Positions 1-10,944 of a DNA stretch of 64,000 nt are shown piece after piece. Source of the stretch: Mesorhizobium sp. M4B.F.Ca.ET.058.02.1.1. Its GTDB lineage: Bacteria; Pseudomonadota; Alphaproteobacteria; Rhizobiales; Rhizobiaceae. The first letter of the stretch is position 1, and each line of letters starts with the position of its first letter. The notes under the pieces were generated by a model that saw nothing but the letters and a program-made list of their open reading frames with translations, was not told the DNA's origin and did no database searches. Location of the stretch: NCBI RefSeq assembly GCF_003952505.1, contig NZ_CP034450.1, positions 4,030,001 to 4,094,000 on the forward strand, in the 5' to 3' direction. Both the position numbers and the translations under genes were made by a program.

Positions 1-147
1 GCGGTCCTGGCTGTAGAGCTCGAGCCGCATGGCATTTGGATGGCCGTTCCTGATCTCGAAAGTGACGTCGCCGGCATGAGCGGCCGGCGCGGCCAGCGTG
101 GCGATGAAGAACGCCGCAGCGATGCGGCGGGCGGTGAAGAAAGTCAT
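1..147 (-). CDS. Small exported protein, C-terminus beyond the window edge
   Basis: The N-terminal 49 codons of a gene that runs off the left edge. The product starts MTFFTARRIAAAFFIATLAA and has a clear Sec signal peptide ending near AHA-GD, so it is probably periplasmic. The mature start (DVTFEIRNGHPNAMRLELYSQDR) lines up with the mature start of the next gene on the same strand (MSVFVRNQRSQGVALELFSRDR), so the two are tandem paralogues separated by a palindromic repeat. No function is recognised. The start is supported by the signal peptide beginning directly at this ATG. Confidence 0.7.
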   Translation of the reverse strand, partial: MTFFTARRIAAAFFIATLAAPAAHAGDVTFEIRNGHPNAMRLELYSQDR

Positions 148-276
148 GGCAGTCCCCCGAAAAGAATCGGCCCCCATGGCCGATGGCGGGATGATGGCAT
201 GGCGCGAGCCAATGCCAAGGGGCGGTGGCGAAATAACGGGCGGAATTTTGGGATTGGCGAAAGCGGCGGTGCCGGC

Positions 277-457
277 CGATCTCCCCCTTGAGGGGGAGAT
301 GGCCGCGAAGCGGTCAGAGGGGGTCCTCGCGCGTGAAGCGCCAGCGTCATCTCTTGTCGCGCACAGCGTCTCTTGTCGCGCACAGCGTCGGCGCTCGACG
401 CGCGGCGACCCCCTCTGTCGCCTTCGGCGACATCTCCCCCTCATGGGGGAGATCGGC
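277..457. repeat. Interspersed palindromic element, family A (copy 1)
   Basis: Both ends carry a short palindrome of the type ATCTCCCCCTTGAGGGGGAG, followed inwards by CAGAGGGGGTC on the left and its inverse GACCCCCTCTG on the right, giving a nested inverted repeat of about 180 bp. Inside it a 19-bp unit (TCTCTTGTCGCGCACAGCG) is duplicated in tandem at 350-387. It resembles rhizobial intergenic mosaic elements. It fills the gap between the two paralogous exported proteins. Confidence 0.75.
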
Positions 458-465
458 GCCCCCCG

Positions 466-813
466 TCACTCCGCCAGGTCGATCGTCTCGGTGGAATGCT
501 CGACGCAGATGAAGCAGCATGTATCGCAGGGCTGGTCGTTGTCGGGGCCGACGCCGGCGGAGACCTGGTCGTCGCCATTGACCCAGGCGCCCCAGCAGAT
601 GTTCTCGCCCGGATTGCAGGAGATAGGCACGGATTTGCGTGCGCCCGGACGGATGAGGAAGACCTTGTCGCCGCCCGGCCAGACCGTGTCGCGGTCGCGG
701 CTGAACAGTTCCAGCGCGACGCCCTGCGACCGCTGGTTCCTGACGAACACCGACATGTCGTCGGCCTGGGCCGGCGTGGCGAGGAGAAGGGCGGCGAGCA
801 GAGCGCGAATCAT
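466..813 (-). CDS. Cys-rich small exported protein
   Basis: A 115-residue product with a Sec signal peptide (MIRALLAALLLATPAQA-DD). The mature domain of about 97 residues looks like a small beta-rich domain (SVFVRNQRSQGVALELFSRD) and ends in a dense cysteine segment, CDTCCFICVEH, with further cysteines in SCNPGENICWG: six in all. These could bind a metal or form disulfides in the periplasm; this is inference. It is a paralogue of the truncated gene at the left edge. I do not recognise the family. The start is the ATG directly before the signal peptide; longer upstream frames run through repeat DNA. Confidence 0.75.
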   Translation of the reverse strand: MIRALLAALLLATPAQADDMSVFVRNQRSQGVALELFSRDRDTVWPGGDKVFLIRPGARKSVPISCNPGENICWGAWVNGDDQVSAGVGPDNDQPCDTCCFICVEHSTETIDLAE

Positions 814-858
814 GGTGGGTCCCGGGGGAGTAGAGCACGGGTGGGGGAGCCGCGCGAC

Positions 859-1136
859 CTCCCCTTCTCCCCTTGTGGGGTGAGAAGTGGTCCGCGTTAG
901 CGGACGAAAAAGCCAATTGCTTGGCTTTTCGAGCTTCGAACGCCCTGAGCCTGCGAAGGGCCGGGCGGTGGCCGAGCGAAGCTCGGACGGATGAGGGGTG
1001 TTCCAGCTTGGCGTAAACCTCCGCCGGCGGCGAAAGGCGCGACACGGTCGCCAGCGCCTCACTCCGCTGGAACACCCCTCATCCGTCTCTGCGCTGCGCG
1101 CCGATCCACCTTCCCCCACAAGGGGGGAAGGGGGAG
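859..1136. repeat. Interspersed palindromic element, family C (copy 1)
   Basis: Fills the gap between two genes. Outer arms are CCTTCTCCCCTTGTGGGGTG on the left and a CCCCCACAAGGGGGG palindrome on the right. Inner arms GGATGAGGGGTGTTCCAGC and GGAACACCCCTCATCC form a second inverted repeat. The same architecture recurs at 6388-6536. No gene is seen in it. Confidence 0.75.
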
Positions 1137-1138
1137 CT

Positions 1139-1648
1139 CTACCTATCCACCACCACATGCGGCGCGAATTTGCGGATCGCATCGATCATGTCGTCGCCGC
1201 GCACGTCGAGCGAGGAGACCTCCATGTGCACGATGGTCTTGCCGAACGGTAGGATCCGGTTCACCACATTGGCCGGCGCGTATTTGATGGCGTCGGGCGG
1301 CTCCTCGGTGAGCTCGAAATTGAGCATGGCCGAACCCTTGCCCGAGGTGAGGCGCACGCTCCGCACCTTCGTCCACGGCACCAGCACGTCGCCGGCGCGG
1401 CGGTCTCGAAAACCATGGGAGTCCAGCACGACCTGCACCGAGGTGTCGAAGGCGCCGCGCGCGAGGAAGAAGCCGAGCGCCAGGCAGCCCGCGCTGAGCA
1501 GCGCGATGACAAGCACATGCCCGCTTTTCGCCCCGGCCGCGATGCCCTGCACCACGCCGAAAGCGAAGATCGCGCCGATCAGCAGCGGCCCGATCGCCGG
1601 CAGGATTTTTCCCGTTGCGCTGTTGTGGAGTTCGAGCGGCGCGGTCAT
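1139..1648 (-). CDS. Membrane-anchored PH-like domain protein
   Basis: A 169-residue protein starting MTAPLELHNSATGKI. Two hydrophobic segments (about residues 17-37 and 44-64) form an N-terminal hairpin, followed by a soluble domain of about 100 residues (VLDSHGFRDRRAGDVLVPW and onward) with the beta-rich look of a bacterial PH-like domain facing the cytoplasm. It lies 11 bp downstream of another small membrane protein on the same strand, so they are probably co-transcribed. The ATG at 1648 is preferred because longer versions overlap the upstream gene. Function unknown. Confidence 0.75.
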   Translation of the reverse strand: MTAPLELHNSATGKILPAIGPLLIGAIFAFGVVQGIAAGAKSGHVLVIALLSAGCLALGFFLARGAFDTSVQVVLDSHGFRDRRAGDVLVPWTKVRSVRLTSGKGSAMLNFELTEEPPDAIKYAPANVVNRILPFGKTIVHMEVSSLDVRGDDMIDAIRKFAPHVVVDR

Positions 1649-1659
1649 TTTTCCGCCCC

Positions 1660-2166
1660 TCACCGCTCGGGTTTCAGCAGCGTCCAGATCCAGCCGATGA
1701 AGGTGAGGACCAGGAACGGATAGCCGATCGCCGGCAGCGGCGCCGAAGTCGGCAGCAGCGGCGCGCCCCACAGGATCATCAGCGCCGAGACGGTGAACAG
1801 CAAGGCGGCGACGAGCCCGGCGAGCCGTGTCCAGAGCGCGAAAGTCGCCGGAGCGCTGACCATGACCAGCCCCGCCGCCCACAGCGCGATGCCGCCGACA
1901 TAGGAAGGCACGCTGGCCTGCAGCCCCGCCGCGTTGCCGGCCAGAAGCAGGCTTTCGCCGGCGAGGAAGGTCAGGAAGCCGGCCGCGACGAGATCATTGC
2001 CGAGCCGCTGGTATTTCATCGTCAGCAGCGCCGCCGCAACGACGACACCCACGCCGTCGATGGTCCACAACGTCTCGCGCAGCGCGTCGCTGGCAACGAA
2101 AGTGCCCGCCATGCCCAGCGCGCCGCCGATGGCGAGGCCGATTGCGGCGATGGTGTCCGAGCGCAT
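1660..2166 (-). CDS. Small multi-pass membrane protein
   Basis: A 168-residue, very hydrophobic product beginning MRSDTIAAIGLAIGGALG, with about five predicted transmembrane segments and a basic C-terminus (LLKPER). A GGGGAG Shine-Dalgarno lies 7-12 nt before the ATG. It is first in a two-gene unit with the PH-like protein. I do not recognise the family. Its 5' side marks the left border of the AT-rich islet: base composition changes within about 100 bp upstream of the start. Confidence 0.75.
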   Translation of the reverse strand: MRSDTIAAIGLAIGGALGMAGTFVASDALRETLWTIDGVGVVVAAALLTMKYQRLGNDLVAAGFLTFLAGESLLLAGNAAGLQASVPSYVGGIALWAAGLVMVSAPATFALWTRLAGLVAALLFTVSALMILWGAPLLPTSAPLPAIGYPFLVLTFIGWIWTLLKPER

Positions 2167-2257
2167 GTGATGTCTCCCCAAAGCCGGGGAGAGGATACGC
2201 CGATGTGGGGGGATGGTGAAGGGACTACATCCGTCGCGCGACGCGAGAGCAATGCTC

Positions 2258-4063
2258 CTATATGACTCCGCCCGCCGAATAGCTTTTTTCAGACATAATG
2301 TACGAATGCGTCTTGGTGAGCTTAGCTTTATCTCCCTCTGCGATTTCCGCACTTCGGAGTACCGACTGCAAAACCAACATCTTCTCGTGTGTGCATTTTA
2401 GCGGCACGCTATCGTTTTTTGCGCCAATAACTGACTTGATGCGTTTGTATTTGACCGCTTCTCCTTCCAGCTCTTTATGAAATTCAAGCAGTTCCACCCC
2501 ACTAGGCAGCAACCGCTCGCCAAGATAGATATAATACTTTGGAAATTCCTCCTTGTTTTCCCTGAGTCGCGGCCACATTCCGGCAACCAATCGAGATAGA
2601 GACTCGTCATTCGTCCAAACAAATTCTGTTTCCTCAAGGAACTTAAAAATGGTTTTGGCTAATCCGAACCGAGAAAGAATCCAGATCGCAGCGTAGACCG
2701 AGCAGAAATCGTCCTTTGGAAAATAGGTTAGGATCGCCTTCAGTGAACCTGCCTCTGTTCCATCATATTCGATCTTGGCTTCTACGAGGCGTTTTGCAAG
2801 AATCAATCGGAAGTAGTCGTCGCAAACCAATCCTCGCTCAAACACGGCCTTAATCCTATCGAAATCGACCTTACGAACACCGCATATCCCTACGTTTCGT
2901 AGTGCCGAGTCGCGTAAATTAGGATGGAGTGACATAAAATATTCGAACAGGATATCCGGAATTCTTGCCGAAAACCTATTGTATATACCTATCAGTCTTT
3001 TTACTATCTTCTCACCATTTCCCACCTTGAAGTAGCCGCGTTTATATAGTTCCTCGAAAACCTGCGATACCTTTTTAATTTTCGCTTCTATAGACTCGCC
3101 CGCCGAGGTCATTGCAAGCAGCCGTGCCTCCAATTGCTCTAAGAAGCGATTGTCCCGCACTCTGAAATGTGAATAGGCCTCTTTGGCAGTCAATATCCGG
3201 GTCTTACCGGCATTCAATCTCAGACTGCGTGATTGCAATACCAGATCAGTATCTCGAAGTAACTTCTTCGCGTCTTCGATGGTGTCCACGCCTGCATCGA
3301 TATCATCCATGAACCGCGCATAATTCTTTTGAGAACGCTGCTCCATAAAGCGATCCAACTCAAATAGGTAGCAGTGAGCAAGCAGCCTTGGTGCGTCGAG
3401 ATCGATTTGTGGCAAACCTATTTGACGTGGAGGCATGAAATCTGGTCGCCAAGCGAGCGCGGATATTATATGAAGATAGAAATCAAAGAGCGACTCTTGG
3501 ACCGTCACGAAAGACGTAATCACGTTCCGCAACTGTACAAGATCGATGAAATCGTAGTAATTCGATATATCAGTGACGACTACAAACTTGTTTTCATCAC
3601 GAAAGTCTAATATTTTTTCTTGAAATTTCTTCCATGATTTGAATGTTCCGTACTCTTGTTCGTCGGTCGGCTTGAAGCTGTGATCTTGCGGCTCAAAAAA
3701 CGCGTTTTTGGACGGGGACTGTTTCTTGATGTCGCTGTAGAGCCTGTCCGAAAGGCATTGCAGTATGATGGCTGCCTCGACCGAGGTCTGAACCATCAGT
3801 CGGCACAATCCGAGAGTTTTTTCGACATGGTAGCGCCGGGGCTGGCTTACACCGAAATTCCCCCTACGGATGGCCGATCGTATTCGCGCAATCACAGCAT
3901 CGATGCTTGACTGAAGATCGAGATACTCCACAGGGTCCGGGAATACTTGTCTTTTTAGATCGTATCTTGTTTTCTTCCGCCACTTCTCTTCCAGTCGCTT
4001 GGCGGTGAGATACCTTAGGATATCTTGAGCTCTCAGGCTGTATTTTGGAGAGTGTTGGGTCAC
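2258..4063 (-). CDS. Stand-alone reverse transcriptase-like protein (Abi/UG-DRT type suspected)
   Basis: A 601-residue protein with the palm motifs of a reverse transcriptase. Motif A is VVVTDISNYYDFID (Asp165). A motif 4-like stretch, LPQIDLDAPRLLAHCYLFEL, lies near 217-236. The catalytic box is YARFMDDID (Asp253, Asp254), FMDD in place of the usual YADD. LRLNAGKTRILT at 281-292 matches the (L)N-x-x-KT motif. The N-terminal RYHVEKTLGLCRLMVQTS resembles RT1/2. Residues from about 310 to the end are almost entirely alpha-helical and contain no nuclease or maturase motif I recognise; this RT plus helical-repeat layout is known from AbiA/AbiK and several UG/DRT antiphage RTs. The start is GTG with a stop just upstream in frame and only a weak ribosome site. 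The gene is much richer in A+T than its neighbours, which suggests horizontal acquisition. A role in phage defence is inference. Confidence 0.8.
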   Translation of the reverse strand: MTQHSPKYSLRAQDILRYLTAKRLEEKWRKKTRYDLKRQVFPDPVEYLDLQSSIDAVIARIRSAIRRGNFGVSQPRRYHVEKTLGLCRLMVQTSVEAAIILQCLSDRLYSDIKKQSPSKNAFFEPQDHSFKPTDEQEYGTFKSWKKFQEKILDFRDENKFVVVTDISNYYDFIDLVQLRNVITSFVTVQESLFDFYLHIISALAWRPDFMPPRQIGLPQIDLDAPRLLAHCYLFELDRFMEQRSQKNYARFMDDIDAGVDTIEDAKKLLRDTDLVLQSRSLRLNAGKTRILTAKEAYSHFRVRDNRFLEQLEARLLAMTSAGESIEAKIKKVSQVFEELYKRGYFKVGNGEKIVKRLIGIYNRFSARIPDILFEYFMSLHPNLRDSALRNVGICGVRKVDFDRIKAVFERGLVCDDYFRLILAKRLVEAKIEYDGTEAGSLKAILTYFPKDDFCSVYAAIWILSRFGLAKTIFKFLEETEFVWTNDESLSRLVAGMWPRLRENKEEFPKYYIYLGERLLPSGVELLEFHKELEGEAVKYKRIKSVIGAKNDSVPLKCTHEKMLVLQSVLRSAEIAEGDKAKLTKTHSYIMSEKSYSAGGVI

Positions 4064-4224
4064 TCAAATTACCCAAGAGAGAAGTCGGCGTATCTAGATT
4101 CTACTCTTTAGCCAAAAGCGCAGCCGACGTCTATCTTGTCTCCATTGGCAGAACGCGGCCGCCAACTGATTTCGAAATCCCTCATAAGCGCTGGGACGAA
4201 CGCCCTTGGGTGAAGTCGGTTGTC
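4064..4224 (-). other. Intergenic leader between small ORF and RT gene
   Basis: A 161-nt AT-rich stretch upstream of the reverse transcriptase on its coding strand, with no convincing protein frame. Some defence RTs use a non-coding RNA encoded next to the gene as template or cofactor, so this stretch is the first place to look for one. I see no strong hairpin or promoter by eye, so this marks a location, not an identified RNA. Confidence 0.3.
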
Positions 4225-4470
4225 TCAGCTAACACGCTTCCCGTCGATGAAGATATTGCGCCTAACAAGTGACGGCCGAGTCCTCGTTTCGATGCGAATT
4301 GAGAAGCCCTTTAGGATCAGGCGAATTGCTTCTTCCTCGGTTCGGACGAGGACCTCGTTCTTTTTGAGGTGTTTGATGTTCCGGGCTTCAGGATCCCCGA
4401 GAACGAATAGCCCGTCTTTCTGTGCTGGCGGCCATTTCCGGCCATCGGAAGTCAACCGATAGATTCTCAT
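4225..4470 (-). CDS. Small hypothetical protein upstream of the RT gene
   Basis: An 81-residue basic product starting MRIYRLTSDGRKWPPAQKDG and ending FIDGKRVS, with no membrane segment or signal peptide. The ATG at 4470 is preferred because AGGGA lies about 7 nt upstream; an in-frame ATG at 4476 would sit on top of that site. Same strand as the RT gene, 161 bp upstream, with composition between that of the islet and the core genome. The alternation of charged and hydrophobic residues (LVRTEEEAIRLILKGFSIRI) looks like a real folded protein. I do not recognise the family; it may be an RT partner or an unrelated orphan. Confidence 0.5.
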   Translation of the reverse strand: MRIYRLTSDGRKWPPAQKDGLFVLGDPEARNIKHLKKNEVLVRTEEEAIRLILKGFSIRIETRTRPSLVRRNIFIDGKRVS

Positions 4471-4532
4471 CACCATCCCTGATGTTGTCCGAGGGTCTTT
4501 GTCGGCTGCTCGTTCGACGGTCTACACAGACC

Positions 4533-6338
4533 TCAATCCCCCATCTTCAGCGCCTGGATAAACGCCTCCTGCGGGATATCCACTTTGCCGAACTGCCGCA
4601 TCCGCTTCTTGCCCTCTTTCTGCTTGTCGAGCAGCTTGCGCTTGCGCGAGACGTCGCCGCCGTAGCATTTGGCGGTGACGTCCTTGCGCAGGGCCGAGAC
4701 GGTCTCGCGGGCGATGATGCGGCCGCCTATTGCCGCCTGGATCGGGATCTTGAACAGGTGCTGCGGGATCAGCTCCTTCAGCTTCTCGCACATCTGGCGG
4801 CCACGCTTTTCAGCCGCCGTGCGGTGCACCAGCATGGACAGCGCGTCGACCGGCTCGTCATTGACCAGGATCGACATCTTGACCAGGTCGCCCTCGCGAT
4901 AGTCGGTCAGGTGATAGTCGAAGGAGGCGTAGCCCTTGGAGATCGACTTCAGGCGATCGTAGAAGTCGAAGACGACCTCGTTGAGCGGCAGGTCGTAGGT
5001 GAGCATGGCGCGCTTGCCGACATAGGAGAGATCGGCCTGAATGCCGCGCCTGTCCTGGCAGAGTTTCAGGATGCCGCCGAGATAGTCGTCAGGCGTCAGG
5101 ATGGTGGCGCGGATCCACGGTTCCTCGATCGAGGCGATCTTGACCACGTCGGGCATGTCGGCCGGGTTGTGCAGCTCCTTCACCGTGCCGTCGTTGAGGT
5201 TCATGCGGTAGACGACGGACGGCGCGGTGGCGATGAGGTCGAGGTTGAACTCGCGTTCCAGCCGCTCCTGGATGATCTCCAGATGCAAGAGGCCGAGGAA
5301 GCCGCAACGGAAGCCGAAGCCAAGTGCTGCCGAAGTTTCCATTTCATAGGAGAAGGAGGCGTCGTTGAGGCGCAGCTTGCCGACGGCGGCGCGCAGATCC
5401 TCGAAATCGGCGGCGTCGACCGGGAACAGGCCGCAGAACACCACCGGCTGCGCCGGCTTGAAGCCCGGCAGCGCCTTTTGCGTCGGGCGGCGATCCTCGG
5501 TGATGGTGTCGCCGACGCGGGTGTCGGCCACTTCCTTGATCGAGCCGGTGAAGAAGCCGAACTCGCCGGGGCCAAGCTCGTCGACATTGATGCGGGCGGG
5601 CGTGAAGACGCCGGTGCGCTCGACCAAATATTTGGCGCCGGTGCCCATCATGCGGATGGTCTGGCCCTTCTTCAGCACGCCGTCGATGACGCGGACCAGC
5701 ACGATGACGCCGAGATAGGCGTCGTACCAGCTATCGACCAGCATCGCCTTCAGCGGGGCCGATAGATCGCCCTCGCGCGGCGGCGGCAGCTGGTGGACGA
5801 TCGCCTCCAGCACGTCGGGGATGCCCAAGCCGGTCTTGGCCGAGATCAGCACGGCGTTGGAGGCGTCGATGCCGATCACCTCCTCGACCTGCTCGCGGAT
5901 GCGCTCGGGCTCGGCCGCCGGCAGGTCGACCTTGTTCAGCACCACGACGATCTCGTGGTTGTTGTCGATGGCCTGGTAGACATTGGCCAGCGTCTGCGCC
6001 TCGACGCCTTGCGAGGCGTCGACGACCAGCAGCGAGCCCTCGCAGGCGGCCAGCGACCGCGACACCTCATAGGCGAAGTCGACATGGCCGGGCGTGTCGA
6101 TGAGGTTGAGGATATAGTCCTCGCCATTGTCGGCGCGGTATTTCAGCCGCACCGTCTGCGCCTTGATGGTGATGCCGCGCTCGCGCTCGATGTCCATCGA
6201 GTCCAGCACCTGCTCCTTCATGTCACGCGCCTCCAGCCCGCCGGTGAGTTGGATCAGCCGGTCGGCAAGCGTGGATTTGCCATGGTCGATATGGGCGACG
6301 ATGGAGAAATTGCGGATATGGTCGAGGGGCGTCGTCAT
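4533..6338 (-). CDS. lepA: Elongation factor 4 (LepA), ribosomal GTPase
   Basis: 601 residues, the normal length for LepA/EF4, a translational GTPase that acts on stalled or mis-translocated ribosomes. The GTPase motifs are all present: AHIDHGKST (G1), DTPGHVDF (G3) and NKVDLP (G4) within the first 140 residues, followed by EF-G-like domains and the LepA-specific C-terminal domain ([15 protein letters not shown] near the end). The ATG at 6338 gives the canonical start [20 protein letters not shown]; longer frames read into the upstream repeat. Transcribed alone, with a family C palindromic element upstream. Confidence 0.97.
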
Positions 6339-6387
6339 GCGGCGCGCTTTAGCAGGGGCGGGGTTGAGGGGCAAGCGGTGGGCTCTT

Positions 6388-6536
6388 CTCCTTCTCCCCT
6401 TGTGGGAGAAGGTGGATCGGCGCGCAGCGCCGAGACGGATGAGGGTGTTCCAGCGGAGTGAGACGTCGGCGTTCCCTGGAACACCCCTCATCCGTCGCCT
6501 TCGGCGACACCTTCTCCCACAAGGGGAGAAGGGGAG
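6388..6536. repeat. Interspersed palindromic element, family C (copy 2)
   Basis: Outer palindromes TTCTCCCCTTGTGGGAGAAG on the left and CTTCTCCCACAAGGGGAGAA on the right are inverse copies. Inside them, GACGGATGAGGGTGTTCCAG pairs with GGAACACCCCTCATCCGTC. This about 150-bp nested inverted repeat lies between lepA and the pilus gene. The rest of the gap (6537-6646) is the leader of the downstream gene and holds no other feature I can support. Confidence 0.8.
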
Positions 6537-6646
6537 TCGCGCCAACCCGCCCCGCGCCTAGATAAGTCGCACCTTAAAGATTAATCCACCAGTTTGGAGC
6601 ATGATCCGCCGCTGCCTCGGCAGGCCTGGTTTGGGGGACCTCAACA

Positions 6647-7711
6647 ATGTTCGGATACACAAGAGATTTCGTGCGCTCGCGGCGCGGCTCGATGATGCCG
6701 GTGTTCATCATCATCCTGACGCCGCTGCTGCTCGCCGTCGGCTTCTCGGTCGACTACACCTCGGCGGTCGAGACGAAAAGCAACATGCAGAACGCGCTCG
6801 ACGCGGCGATCCTGTCGGTCACCACGCTGCCGAAAACCACCCCGCTGGCCGACCGCGAGACGTCGCTGAAGCAGGCCTTCGCCGCCAATGGCGGGCAAGG
6901 CACCGCCAAGCTCGACAGCTTTGTTGTGGCCGCAGACGGCACCGCCACCGCCACGGCTTCGGCGCACTACCCGATGCCGACCAATTTCATGCAGATCGCC
7001 AGGATCGAAACGGTCGAGGTCGGCGTCGCCTCGGCGGTGCGCAAGCGGCCGGCGCTGGTGCAGACCACGTTCAAGGTCACCAAAGTATCCGGCTACTGGA
7101 ACAAGACGATGACGCTCTACGGCACCAAGTTCGGCGACACCGTCGCCAAGCCGCTGATGACGATCACCTATGCCTATAACAACTACGGTGACCCGAAGGG
7201 CTACGGCACCTCGATCGTCAGCACGATCAACGGCAGCACCACGACCAAGGTGCAGCAGCAGGTCTGCACGACCTCGACGGTGAAGAACTTCAGCAGCCTG
7301 CCCAGCGGCGCGATCACGCAAACCAGCGGCAGCAAGAAGTATGTCACGACCTGCGCCGATACGTTCTATCCCAGCAACGGCGCCGGCGCGGTGATCGACG
7401 TCAGCCAGATGGACAACCTCTATCTGCAGATGGACGTGCCCTCGGGCAGCCCGAAGGTGCTGAAATCCAACGACCCGACCACCTCGAACCGGCTCTACAT
7501 CGGCACCAGCACCACGACCATGCCCGAGGTCGCGACCGGCCAGACGGTCGACATCTTCACCGCGGTGCCCTGCGGCCAGCCCGGCTACCAGGCCTGGGAG
7601 GATGGTGGCAACCCGGTGCCGGCCGACGTCAGCAATGCCGACTTCTTCTACACCGTCCAGGGCAAATGCGACTTCAACCAGCGGCCGTCCAACACGGTGC
7701 TGACGCAGTGA
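6647..7711 (+). CDS. TadE/TadG-like Flp pilus assembly protein
   Basis: 354 residues. The N-terminus (RRGSMMPVFIIILTPLLLAV, then DYTSAVETKSNMQNALDAAI) is the TadE/TadG pilin-like module: a basic patch, one membrane helix, and an amphipathic segment rich in N and A. The rest is a Thr/Ser/Gly-rich extracytoplasmic domain with six cysteines. Such proteins are minor pseudopilins or surface components of Tad (tight adherence) systems. No other tad genes lie nearby, so it is an orphan and its partners would be elsewhere. A GGGGGA site precedes the ATG. A perfect 12-bp stem hairpin follows the stop codon. Confidence 0.8.
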   Translation: MFGYTRDFVRSRRGSMMPVFIIILTPLLLAVGFSVDYTSAVETKSNMQNALDAAILSVTTLPKTTPLADRETSLKQAFAANGGQGTAKLDSFVVAADGTATATASAHYPMPTNFMQIARIETVEVGVASAVRKRPALVQTTFKVTKVSGYWNKTMTLYGTKFGDTVAKPLMTITYAYNNYGDPKGYGTSIVSTINGSTTTKVQQQVCTTSTVKNFSSLPSGAITQTSGSKKYVTTCADTFYPSNGAGAVIDVSQMDNLYLQMDVPSGSPKVLKSNDPTTSNRLYIGTSTTTMPEVATGQTVDIFTAVPCGQPGYQAWEDGGNPVPADVSNADFFYTVQGKCDFNQRPSNTVLTQ

Positions 7712-7718
7712 TGAGCAC

Positions 7719-7746
7719 TTCCCTTCTCCCCTGTGGGAGAAGGGAA
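7719..7746. terminator. Perfect 12-bp hairpin after the pilus gene
   Basis: TTCCCTTCTCCC, loop CTGT, then GGGAGAAGGGAA: a perfect 12-bp stem beginning 7 nt after the stop codon. It has no clear T-run, so it may be a weak terminator or a minimal solo copy of the palindromic repeats found elsewhere in the window, whose core has the same CTTCTCCC/GGGAGAAG sequence. Confidence 0.5.
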
Positions 7747-7839
7747 AGAGCAGCGCAATCACAAACCGGTGATGCCTGTAACGAAGCCCGATGCGGTGGC
7801 GAAATGGGAGCAAGACCCCGCCGCAACGGAGACTTCCCC

Positions 7840-8547
7840 ATGACCAGACCCAAGACGTCGCTCGGCAGCGCGCTCCTCGCCAGCGCGGCCTTCATCGCGC
7901 TGGCCACGACCGCCGGCACGGCCGCCGCCCAGCCGCTGACCGTGGTCGAGCTGTTCACCAGCCAGGGCTGCTCGTCCTGCCCGCCGGCCAATGCCAACCT
8001 GATCAAGGTCAAGGACCGGCCGGGCGTGCTGGCGCTGTCGTTCAACGTCACCTACTGGGACTATCTCGGCTGGAAGGACATTTTCGGCCGGCAGGAATTC
8101 ACGCAGCGCCAGGTGAATTATGAGCCGTCGCTCGGCCATGACGGTCCGTTCACGCCGCAGGTGGTGGTGAATGGCAGCGCCGACGCGGTCGGCGCCGCGC
8201 CCGGCGAGATCGAACGGCTGATCTCGACCGGCCCGCAACCCAAGGGTCCGGCGCTCTCGCTCGGCGACGGCAAGGTGAGCATCGGCGCCGGCACGGCGCC
8301 CGGCGGGACGGCCGATGTCTGGCTGGTGCGCTACGCACGCGGCGTCGTCGAGGTGCCGGTGGCGCGCGGCGAGAACACCGGCCGCACCCTGCCGCATGCC
8401 AATGTCGTGCATTCGCTGCAGCGGCTCGGCCGCTGGAACGGCCAGGCGACGACGTTGCCGCTGCCGGCCGATGGTGGCGGGCTCAGCACCGCGGTGCTGG
8501 TGCAGACACCCGGCGGCGGGCCGATCCTGGCCGCCGCGGCGAACTGA
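7840..8547 (+). CDS. DUF1223 family exported thioredoxin-fold protein
   Basis: 235 residues with a Sec signal peptide (SALLASAAFIALATTAGTAA, cleavage near AAAQ). The mature protein opens with VVELFTSQGCSSCPPANANL, a CSSC motif in a thioredoxin-like context typical of DUF1223 proteins, which are predicted periplasmic redox proteins of unknown substrate. FTPQVVVNG further on is also characteristic of the family. The start lies 11-14 nt downstream of a GGAG site; upstream in-frame codons run through the hairpin. It precedes the Met-rich protein and MsrA genes on the same strand, making a cluster of envelope redox or repair functions. Confidence 0.85.
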   Translation: MTRPKTSLGSALLASAAFIALATTAGTAAAQPLTVVELFTSQGCSSCPPANANLIKVKDRPGVLALSFNVTYWDYLGWKDIFGRQEFTQRQVNYEPSLGHDGPFTPQVVVNGSADAVGAAPGEIERLISTGPQPKGPALSLGDGKVSIGAGTAPGGTADVWLVRYARGVVEVPVARGENTGRTLPHANVVHSLQRLGRWNGQATTLPLPADGGGLSTAVLVQTPGGGPILAAAAN

Positions 8548-8630
8548 GCATCCCTTCTTCGCGCGATGCCGCATGGGGCGGCAGCGCACCATCCGGCCCG
8601 CATCGCGCGCCACAACCCAAGGAGAATACC

Positions 8631-8957
8631 ATGACCAAATTCCTGACCGCGCTCGCCCTTGCGCTCGCAACCACGGCGTTCGCCGCCGGCGCCCGCGCCG
8701 ACGACGCGACCAACGCCATGAAGCCGGCCAATGCAATGGCCACCGACGCCATGAAGCCGAAGACCGACGCGATGAAACCCGCGACGGGTGCGATGAAGCC
8801 GGCCAACGCGATGGCGACCGATGCGATGAGCACGCAGGCGATGAAGCCGGCCGATGCCATGAAGCCGGCCACGGGTGCGATGAAGCCGGCCACGGATGCG
8901 ATGAAGCCGGTGACCGATGCGATGAAACCCGTCGATGCGATGGCTCCAGCGCAATAA
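8631..8957 (+). CDS. Exported methionine-rich AMKP repeat protein
   Basis: 108 residues. A signal peptide (MTKFLTALALALATTAFAAG, cleavage near ARA-DD) is followed by about 84 residues of low-complexity repeat in which x-AM-KP-A/V-x recurs: 13 Met, always after Ala, spaced every 5-8 residues. It resembles the short Met-rich MXKDX-type repeat proteins of proteobacteria, whose role is unknown. AAGGAG lies just upstream of the ATG. It is 81 bp upstream of an exported MsrA, so a Met-rich periplasmic protein sits beside a periplasmic Met-sulfoxide reductase. That suggests an oxidant-sink or metal-binding role, by inference only. Confidence 0.8.
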   Translation: MTKFLTALALALATTAFAAGARADDATNAMKPANAMATDAMKPKTDAMKPATGAMKPANAMATDAMSTQAMKPADAMKPATGAMKPATDAMKPVTDAMKPVDAMAPAQ

Positions 8958-9038
8958 GTTGCAGCCGACGCACGCCAAAGTGAGAACCTGGCGGCGGCTG
9001 GTTTCGTATATAGTGAACAGCAGCAAGGGAGTTCCAAC

Positions 9039-9773
9039 ATGACCGCAATTCGACAGCAGAAGCGATCATCGACCTTCGCCAAAGGCGCGCTCGCCGCGCT
9101 CGTCCTGACCGTCGCGGCCGCCGCCTTCTGGCAGACGCCGGCGGTCTCGGCCGAGGACGCGGTGGTGATCCCGCCGCCGGCAATGGACGAGAAGGCGTCG
9201 AGCGGCAGCGAGACGGCGGTCTTCGCCGGCGGCTGCTTCTGGGGCGTGCAGGGCGTGTTCCAGCACGTCAAGGGCGTGAGCAAGGCGGTGTCCGGCTACA
9301 CCGGCGGCAGCAAGGAAAACGCCGTTTACGAGGTCGTCGGCACCGGCAGCACCGGACATGCCGAGTCGGTCGAGATCACCTACGACCCGTCGCAGGTGAC
9401 CTATGGCCAGCTGCTGCAGGTCTATTTCTCGGTCGCGCACAATCCGACGCAGCTCAACTACCAGGGGCCGGACCACGGCACCCAGTACCGCTCGACGATC
9501 TTCGCCGGCAATGACGAGCAGAAGAAGGTGGCCGAGAGCTACATCGCCCAGCTCGACAAGGCCAAGGTGTTTTCTCAGCCGATCGTCACCACGCTGGAGA
9601 CCGGCAAGACCTTCTATCCGGCCGAGGACTACCACCAGGATTTCCTGACGCTGAACCCGACCTATCCCTACATCGTCTACAACGACCTGCCGAAGGTGGC
9701 GAATCTGAAGACGCTGTTCCCCGAGCTCTACAGCGAAACGCCGGTGCTGGTGCTGGCGTCGAACAAAAGCTGA
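9039..9773 (+). CDS. msrA: Exported peptide methionine sulfoxide reductase A
   Basis: 244 residues. An N-terminal signal or anchor (LAALVLTVAAAAFWQTPAVS) precedes a complete MsrA domain with the catalytic GCFWG (Cys66) and the substrate-binding stretch HNPTQLNYQGPDHGTQYRS. MsrA reduces methionine-S-sulfoxide in proteins. Cys66 is the only cysteine in the protein, so this is a 1-Cys type without resolving cysteines and must be re-reduced by an external thiol. Predicted periplasmic. The leader has AAGGGAG before the ATG. Probably linked functionally to the preceding Met-rich protein. Confidence 0.92.
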   Translation: MTAIRQQKRSSTFAKGALAALVLTVAAAAFWQTPAVSAEDAVVIPPPAMDEKASSGSETAVFAGGCFWGVQGVFQHVKGVSKAVSGYTGGSKENAVYEVVGTGSTGHAESVEITYDPSQVTYGQLLQVYFSVAHNPTQLNYQGPDHGTQYRSTIFAGNDEQKKVAESYIAQLDKAKVFSQPIVTTLETGKTFYPAEDYHQDFLTLNPTYPYIVYNDLPKVANLKTLFPELYSETPVLVLASNKS

Positions 9774-9777
9774 GCGG

Positions 9778-9931
9778 CAATCTCCCCCTCGAGGGGGAGA
9801 TGTCGCCGAAGGCGACAGAGGGGGTCCGCGCGCGTGGAGCGCCGACCCCTATCGGCGCCAGGAAGCAGGCTGAGCCCGGTCAGACCGACCCCCTCTGGCC
9901 TGCCGGCCATCTCCCCCTCGAGGGGGGAGAA
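9778..9931. repeat. Interspersed palindromic element, family A (copy 2)
   Basis: Left palindrome ATCTCCCCCTCGAGGGGGAG, then CAGAGGGGGTC; right side GACCCCCTCTG, then CATCTCCCCCTCGAGGGG. It fills the gap between the convergent msrA and cydB genes and may act as a bidirectional transcription stop. Confidence 0.75.
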
Positions 9932-9939
9932 AGACGCCC

Positions 9940-10944
9940 TCAATCATAGGTCAGATCCGTCGCCTTCCCACCAAAAACCCGGTAGGCATAGAACGAATAG
10001 AAGATGATGATCGGCAGCACCACGACGACGCCGACCAGGATCACCACCAGGCTTTCCGGCGCCGAGGCGGCCTGCCAGATGGTCAGCTTGTCGGGCACGA
10101 CGAAGGGGTAGAACGACCAGGCGAGCCCGGCGAAGCCGAGCGCGAAGATGGCGGCGAGCGTCAGGAACGGCGTCAGCGCATGGCGGTCGGCCGGCTTCGG
10201 CAGGTGGAAGGTCTGCCGCCACAGCCACAGGAACAAGAGTGCCGAGAGGATGGGCAGCGGCGAGAGATAGAGTATCTCCGGAAAGAGGAACCATTTGTCG
10301 AAGATGCGCGGGCTGGCGAAGGGCGTGGCGAGCGACACCGCGACCATGCCGAGCGCCGCCAGCACCAGCGCGGTACGCAGCCAGCGCACCGCCTTGCGCT
10401 GCAACTCGCCCTCGGTCTTGTAGATAAGCCAGGCCGAGCCCATCGCCGCATAGGCGGCCGACAGGCAGAGCGCCACCAGCGCGCCGAAGGCAATGCCGCC
10501 GAGGCCGACATCGAGGCCGAGCACATAGACGCCCAGCATGTAGCCCTGCGCCAGCGAGGCGACGGCCGAGCCGAGGAAGAAGATGCGGTTCCAGCGATGC
10601 TTGCTGCCGGCCGGCACCTTGGCGCGGAAATCGAAGGCGACGCCACGCAGGATCAGGCCGACCAGGAGCACGAAGACCGGTATGTAGAGCGCGCTGAGTA
10701 TGGTGCCGTGCGCCAGCGGGAAGGCGACGAGCAGCAGGCCGACGGCCAGCACCAGCCAGGTCTCGTTGGCGTCCCAGAACGGGCCGATGGCCGCGATCAT
10801 CGTGTCCTGCTCGTGGTCGTCGGCGGCGGCGAACAGGATGCCGATGCCGAGGTCGAAGCCGTCGAGGATGACGTAGATCAGGATGGCGAGGCCCATCAGG
10901 CCGGCGAAGATCAGCGGGAGCGCGGTTGGCCAGTCATAGGTCAT
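9940..10944 (-). CDS. cydB: Cytochrome bd-type ubiquinol oxidase subunit II
   Basis: 334 residues, the usual length of CydB/CioB, with about nine membrane helices. It begins MTYDWPTALPLIFAGLMGLA; characteristic segments include YVILDGFDLGIGIL, GPFWDANETWLV and LRGVAFDFR. Together with CydA it reduces O2 at the expense of quinol in the inner membrane, and supports microaerobic or cyanide-resistant respiration. GAGGAGAAG precedes the ATG. Its partner cydA lies upstream on the same strand, but the two are now separated by a palindromic element and a 1.3-kb IS, so cydB may have lost the cydA promoter. No small cydX-like gene is visible downstream. Confidence 0.95.
   Translation of the reverse strand: MTYDWPTALPLIFAGLMGLAILIYVILDGFDLGIGILFAAADDHEQDTMIAAIGPFWDANETWLVLAVGLLLVAFPLAHGTILSALYIPVFVLLVGLILRGVAFDFRAKVPAGSKHRWNRIFFLGSAVASLAQGYMLGVYVLGLDVGLGGIAFGALVALCLSAAYAAMGSAWLIYKTEGELQRKAVRWLRTALVLAALGMVAVSLATPFASPRIFDKWFLFPEILYLSPLPILSALLFLWLWRQTFHLPKPADRHALTPFLTLAAIFALGFAGLAWSFYPFVVPDKLTIWQAASAPESLVVILVGVVVVLPIIIFYSFYAYRVFGGKATDLTYD

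Follow-up and report, generated by a model that had tools for sequence, protein, structure and literature searches.

What does a solitary reverse transcriptase (RT) gene do in an AT-rich islet behind lepA in Mesorhizobium sp. M4B.F.Ca.ET.058.02.1.1? The question arises from a 64,000-nucleotide stretch of contig NZ_CP034450.1 (positions 4,030,001 to 4,094,000; hereafter the window, whose own coordinates are used throughout). A first-pass annotation of this stretch had noticed a stand-alone RT with an FMDD active site and an added helical region, and had suggested an unclassified subgroup with a possible role in phage defence. We assign the gene, which lies in an exchangeable slot behind lepA, to the group UG13 (UG13a). 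Its product probably acts in phage defence in the manner of DRT4, DRT6 and AbiK, as a template-independent, protein-primed DNA polymerase encoded by a single gene.

The UG13a RT is encoded by an intact open reading frame (ORF) of 601 aa at 2258..4063 on the minus strand, with a GTG start and an N-terminus (MTQHSPKY) that agrees with those of its relatives. The palm motifs noticed at first were all found in this ORF, as VVVTDISNYYD, RFMDDID and LRLNAGKT, and a match to Pfam RVT_1 spans residues 124-292 with 36.7 bits (cut-off 29.6; E=4.6e-9). Motif A, TDISNYYD with the catalytic D165, lies at 3551..3574 (minus strand), and motif C, FMDD with the catalytic D253 and D254, at 3302..3313 (minus strand). 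In the search against RT classification models, the PADLOC profile RT_UG13a matched residues 3-596 of 601 (649.2 bits, E=1.9e-195), far ahead of the runner-up UG21 with 111 bits. By sequence, the RT of the window thus belongs to the named group UG13. Among solved structures, no significant sequence relative was found (best E=0.057).

The protein search returned 369 relatives at E<=0.001 among 8000 candidates scored. A family alignment of 83 rows was built from the window protein and 82 of the best 120 relatives, most fragments and near-duplicates being excluded. Motif C reads FMDD in 56 and YMDD in 27 of the 83 rows, while D165, D253, D254 and Tyr138 are invariant in all of them. Mean conservation is 0.66 for residues 40-310 and 0.42 for residues 311-601. 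FMDD is accordingly the normal motif of the group together with YMDD, not a variation, and the idea of an unclassified subgroup had to be given up because of this and of the full-length RT_UG13a match. Nothing sets the window protein apart within UG13, where identities to the relatives listed or aligned range from 33 to 100%. In GTDB contigs, 45 loci matched: 28 strongly (L031-L058, E<=7e-47), all of them from Alphaproteobacteria judging by their records, and 17 more weakly (E 2e-20 to 2e-4). Four divergent members of the strong set (L053, L054, L055, L057) carry WVDD at motif C. No characterised UG13 member was found in the literature searched, in which coverage of subscription papers is incomplete, so the profile match does not point to a characterised family with another role; UG13 is named neither in the main text of the RT classification paper PMC8934634 nor in the review PMC13213688.

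The gene does not appear to be of phage origin, with no match to the RT in 50,697 phage records. IMG/VR contains six weakly matching loci (22-32% identity), and 12 of 72,556 plasmid records match, all below 60% identity. Three of the plasmids, NZ_CP092204, NZ_CP092209 and NZ_CP092210 from Leptospira weilii, lie outside Alphaproteobacteria and encode an RT 27.6% identical over 82% of the query. Reference searches with other profiles (398 genomes each, E<=1e-60) detected UG17 in two genomes, AbiP2 in two and Drt5 in none, which is not enough reference sequence for a tree of the classes; the Drt5 profile gave no match even in controls, and its count says nothing on the absence of Drt5.

The RT could also be what is left of a mobile retroelement of the group II intron type, in decay and now functionless. 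A weak likeness to intron maturases exists (NCBIfam group_II_RT_mat, 53.5 bits), and two relatives are broken: the homologue in Aurantimonas marina (L031, 6001-10371) is interrupted after about residue 478 by about 2.5 kb, and the match behind lepA in L032 (6001-7801) falls into three pieces that lie in different frames, by decay or assembly error. However, the maturase score is far under its cut-off of 300 bits, as are those for Drt4 (25.6 against 450), Drt3a (23.5 against 200), Drt5 (15.8 against 550) and AbiA (15.5 against 250). At E<=1, Rfam contains no family matching 1600-5200, as would be expected if neither a group II intron RNA nor the RNA of a known retron is present. The first-pass annotation had likewise seen no retron, group II intron or CRISPR gene in the islet, and none was found. 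The catalytic residues are invariant, as given above, and the ratio of nonsynonymous to synonymous substitution rates (dN/dS) of the RT came to 0.09, 0.07, 0.05 and 0.04 in the four of eight pairs for which dS could be computed; dS ran from 0.26 up to 2.6, a value close to saturation. The gene is under purifying selection, and we regard a functionless remnant as very improbable.

What kind of polymerase could be preserved here? A structure was predicted for the window RT with a mean pLDDT (predicted local distance difference test) of 91.8. The model has two lobes and is helical from about residue 293 to 596 (2276..3187, minus strand), in good agreement with the roughly 290 helical residues first described after the palm. 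According to published work, AbiK and Abi-P2 have an all-helical C-terminal domain of this type where a thumb would otherwise be. The model aligns over both lobes with DRT6, DRT4, UG15, AbiA, Abi-P2 and AbiK, and over the RT lobe only with DRT2 and DRT9. The comparison used the whole-protein model and a VIA-align re-examination of the top 1000 of Foldseek, and absence from that list carries no meaning. Together with the UG13 profile match, these two-lobe alignments support the early placement among RTs of the Abi, UG and DRT kind, which carry an extra helical domain.

Similar to the window RT, DRT4 (UG15) and DRT6 are single genes with an RT and a helical lobe, and the alignments with them span 441-450 residues, although sequence identity is just 10-13%. 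AbiK, Abi-P2 and AbiA have in common with it the Asp triad and the helical lobe replacing the thumb (alignments of 351-399 residues). For DRT4, reviews including PMC13213688 describe tyrosine priming, a product of random single-stranded DNA and ORF55 as the trigger. Of the traits of Class 1 single-gene DRT and Abi enzymes, the protein has the RT palm with the Asp triad and, in the model, a helical repeat lobe where the thumb would be, and comparison by sequence showed neither a non-coding RNA in cis nor an obligate partner.

Because of this fold and the gene context, we infer template-free, protein-primed synthesis and a function in phage defence. In the proposed mechanism, the alpha-helical repeat lobe would take the part of a thumb in closing the RT palm (D165, D253, D254), and the enzyme would extend one of its own hydroxyl groups with nucleotides, with neither RNA nor DNA as template. 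This DNA would then, by itself or once a phage factor has stabilised it, leave the infected cell unable to support phage growth. Class 1 enzymes make DNA in this template-independent way as a trimer or hexamer; the window RT may likewise act as an oligomer, and its activity may be toxic.

Two residues are candidate primers, judged by their conservation. Ser5, in the N-terminal SP[KR][FY] motif (4049..4051, minus strand), is Ser in 72/72 rows that have a residue in this column, and Thr in the divergent L053, L054, L055 and L057 and in one other listed relative. Tyr138 (3650..3652, minus strand), Tyr in every row, is placed at the edge of a mobile loop (residues 130-137, pLDDT <50). Since two other UG RTs align Phe at this position, Tyr138 is not accepted as the sure primer.

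Would such an enzyme copy an RNA encoded next to it, as the Class 2 systems DRT2, DRT9 and DRT10 do? The 700-nucleotide flanks of the window RT and the 28 strong loci (29 in all) were compared by blastn, and similarity was found only where host genes are in common or the RTs are close, apart from a few short weak matches (e.g. downstream in L031/L032). The 200 nucleotides upstream were compared between pairs from 24 of the 29 loci, with L031, L049, L056, L057 and L058 left out. They showed no similarity in 31 of 37 pairs with at least 50% RT identity (z -1.5 to 2.0). The exceptions are the three closest pairs (93-98% RT identity) and three pairs of the group behind uvrA (L039/L048, L039/L046, L046/L048). 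Even at 83-89% RT identity the upstream regions were dissimilar in nine of ten pairs; these nine stem from seven loci (L033, L034, L038, L042, L043, L044, L051) and are not independent. By sequence similarity, then, UG13a has no conserved RNA at its side, and no alignable candidate for a covariance model emerged. The conserved template RNA in cis of Class 2 was found neither in this way nor by Rfam, and the same holds for the msr/msd RNA of a known retron. Beyond the RT lobe, moreover, the model aligns with single-gene enzymes and not with DRT2 or DRT9. A Class 2-like enzyme is, in our judgement, unlikely.

A partner protein was looked for among the neighbours of the RT loci. Clusters of more than two members comprised only the lepA flank, the gene before the lepA flank and the uvrA flank; as far as the neighbouring sequences tell, UG13a has no recurrent partner gene. 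The lepA-proximal part of the window slot contains an ORF of 83 aa with no assigned function (4225..4476, minus strand); it has 18 matches in the protein search, the top one at 100% identity. An obligate partnership of this ORF with UG13a was ruled out, because it also occurs in the slot of L158 beside a different cargo and because among 31 genomes searched it was present only in its own. In L033 and L034 a gene on the opposite strand (224 and 199 aa, respectively) lies between lepA and the RT, upstream of the latter.

The setting of the gene was examined next to its sequence. The first-pass annotation had called the islet richer in A+T than its flanks, and a plot of G+C content (GC) confirms this: GC is 45-47% in 500-base segments over 2251-4000, and 61-73% in the remainder of 1-10000, transition zones apart. 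The variable slot (2224..4532) has a GC of 0.479 against 0.650 for the window, and all the 2.3-kb stretches with the lowest GC in the window share bases with it. Homology to relatives ends at the stop codon of lepA and sets in again 57 bases ahead of the core gene downstream. The upstream boundary is a gene of 601 aa (4533..6338, minus strand) that we take to be lepA, a name assigned from the sequence rather than by a profile, and of which the relatives' copies are 88-97% identical. The downstream boundary is a small conserved gene (1660..2166, minus strand), membrane-type by eye and without Pfam match.

UG13a was detected at E<1e-190 in six of 146 genomes of the genus. Any match at E<=0.001 was present in 47, the other 41 being no better than 5e-30. 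In four of the six genomes (G000, G015, G058, G096) the gene lies behind lepA, as it also does in the metagenome-assembled Rhizobiaceae genome L032. In L039, L048, L053 and L054 (one protein cluster; Pfam run on L039) it lies behind uvrA, in L046 likewise by DNA similarity, and in L037 behind rpoD. These positions, in the same reading direction as lepA, uvrA and rpoD, would suit an enzyme that synthesises DNA for housekeeping, repair or mutagenesis instead of phage defence. Nonetheless, the presence of UG13a is sporadic, its islet is far from common to all relatives and lacks core-like composition, and the same slot holds other genes in other strains, defence profiles among these. A housekeeping role therefore seems rather improbable to us.

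To compare the lepA locus in related strains, the 3′ end of lepA was matched in 142 of the 146 genomes, and 141 loci including the window were examined; G079, with matches split over two contigs, was left out. In 101 of the 141 loci the core gene on the downstream side could be located, and the other 40 (short contigs or other gene order) were excluded from the count of slot sizes. At least 1 kb separates lepA from the core gene in 89 of the 101, and fewer than 700 bases in ten; the median distance is 2444 bases. Slot GC ranges from 0.47 to 0.66 and exceeds 0.60 in seven of the 96 core-gene loci of the first batch. Gene content varies between strains (loci L113-L252), and the islet itself is sporadic.

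The slots contain 142 proteins of at least 170 aa, which were compared with PADLOC (E<=1e-8; the best 25 of 330 and 25 of 172 families) and Pfam (E<=1e-4). Among the matches listed are, for PADLOC, AriA/AriAB, GajA, Old, PtuA, NsnA/NsnB, PycTIR, UG13a, Drt8, RTasPDDEXK and type II methyltransferases, and for Pfam, HamA, GmrSD_N, SIR2_2, NACHT and others; several are generic ATPases. In L175 and L209 the same slot is filled by a Drt8 RT followed by a second gene, probably the PDDEXK partner of this tally. DRT8 reaches only 39-40 bits to a UG13a profile and differs from the single-gene UG13a by this second gene. A third RT type, of 543 aa and about 30 bits to the UG13a profile, adjoins lepA in L232 (G009). 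In a random sample of 30 of the 88 slots of at least 1 kb, the mechanically picked largest ORF had a PADLOC match at E<=1e-10 in 12 (UG13a itself in one, Drt8 in one, ATPases in three, a helicase model in two), against none of ten randomly drawn other ORFs of the window, a small control. The defence role first suggested for the islet is thus supported as far as the setting goes, by the cargo of the slot in other strains; for the RT itself, an activity against phages is likely rather than observed.

Inside the slot, an incomplete second copy of the 3′ end of lepA was found in each of L140, L155, L157, L165 and L173 (106-108 query bases, 81-99% identical; first 121 loci) and, by protein match, in L235, which suggests that cassettes arrive by an insertion restoring the end of lepA. 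Core defence hotspots of P. aeruginosa and E. coli likewise carry strain-variable defence cargo at fixed places, according to PMC10250203 and PMC10121019; unlike the hotspots described there, the lepA slot is small. Titles and opening lines of abstracts in the literature searched name no defence hotspot at lepA.

Several observations weigh against a template-free, protein-primed defence polymerase. The highest Z scores in the structure comparison (up to 19.8) belong to RTs of diversity-generating retroelements and group II introns, because the RT lobe dominates the alignment, and a common fold is no proof of common chemistry. No counterpart of the priming Tyr44 of AbiK, located in a loop, was identified in the window RT. 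An RNA may be encoded away from the RT, or its conservation may be one of structure and not of sequence. The 83-aa ORF apparently co-occurs with RTs that are among the closest, on contigs of equal length in two cases (P0002/P0123 and P0003/P0122), which might matter. In the sample of slots, the largest ORF had no PADLOC match in 18 of 30, and several of the matches are to a helicase or to ATPases of a generic kind. Template-free synthesis is also reported for Class 3 DRTs (PMC13275509), so a Class 1 placement of the window RT would be provisional.

Two further features of the window were recorded around the locus. Long inverted repeats flank the lepA region (1049-1136 with 6385-6471, and 262-342 with 390-470) and are presumably intergenic mosaic elements. 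At 8631-8957, a small ORF contains repeats at 21-base spacing that read as AMKPA-type units.

UG13 is a named branch of the defence-associated RTs that is apparently uncharacterised in the literature found. Its two-lobed model, the lack of conserved flanking RNA and the compact single gene make UG13a an easy test of template-free, protein-primed synthesis across the UG groups. More tentatively, and with doubt prevailing, UG13a may be a further single-gene, template-free antiviral polymerase whose primer is Tyr138 or a Ser/Thr near the N-terminus (Ser5), not the tyrosine of AbiK, and the lepA slot a genus-wide exchange site of mostly small cassettes, with undescribed defence systems among the unmatched cargoes. 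The slot is the more useful by-product and of broader interest than the RT itself: the same few kilobases behind lepA carry different small cassettes in different species of one genus. As the largest ORFs of the sampled slots divide into those with and those without a PADLOC match, the slot offers a ready-made list of candidate defence genes, and the unmatched ones could belong to unknown systems.
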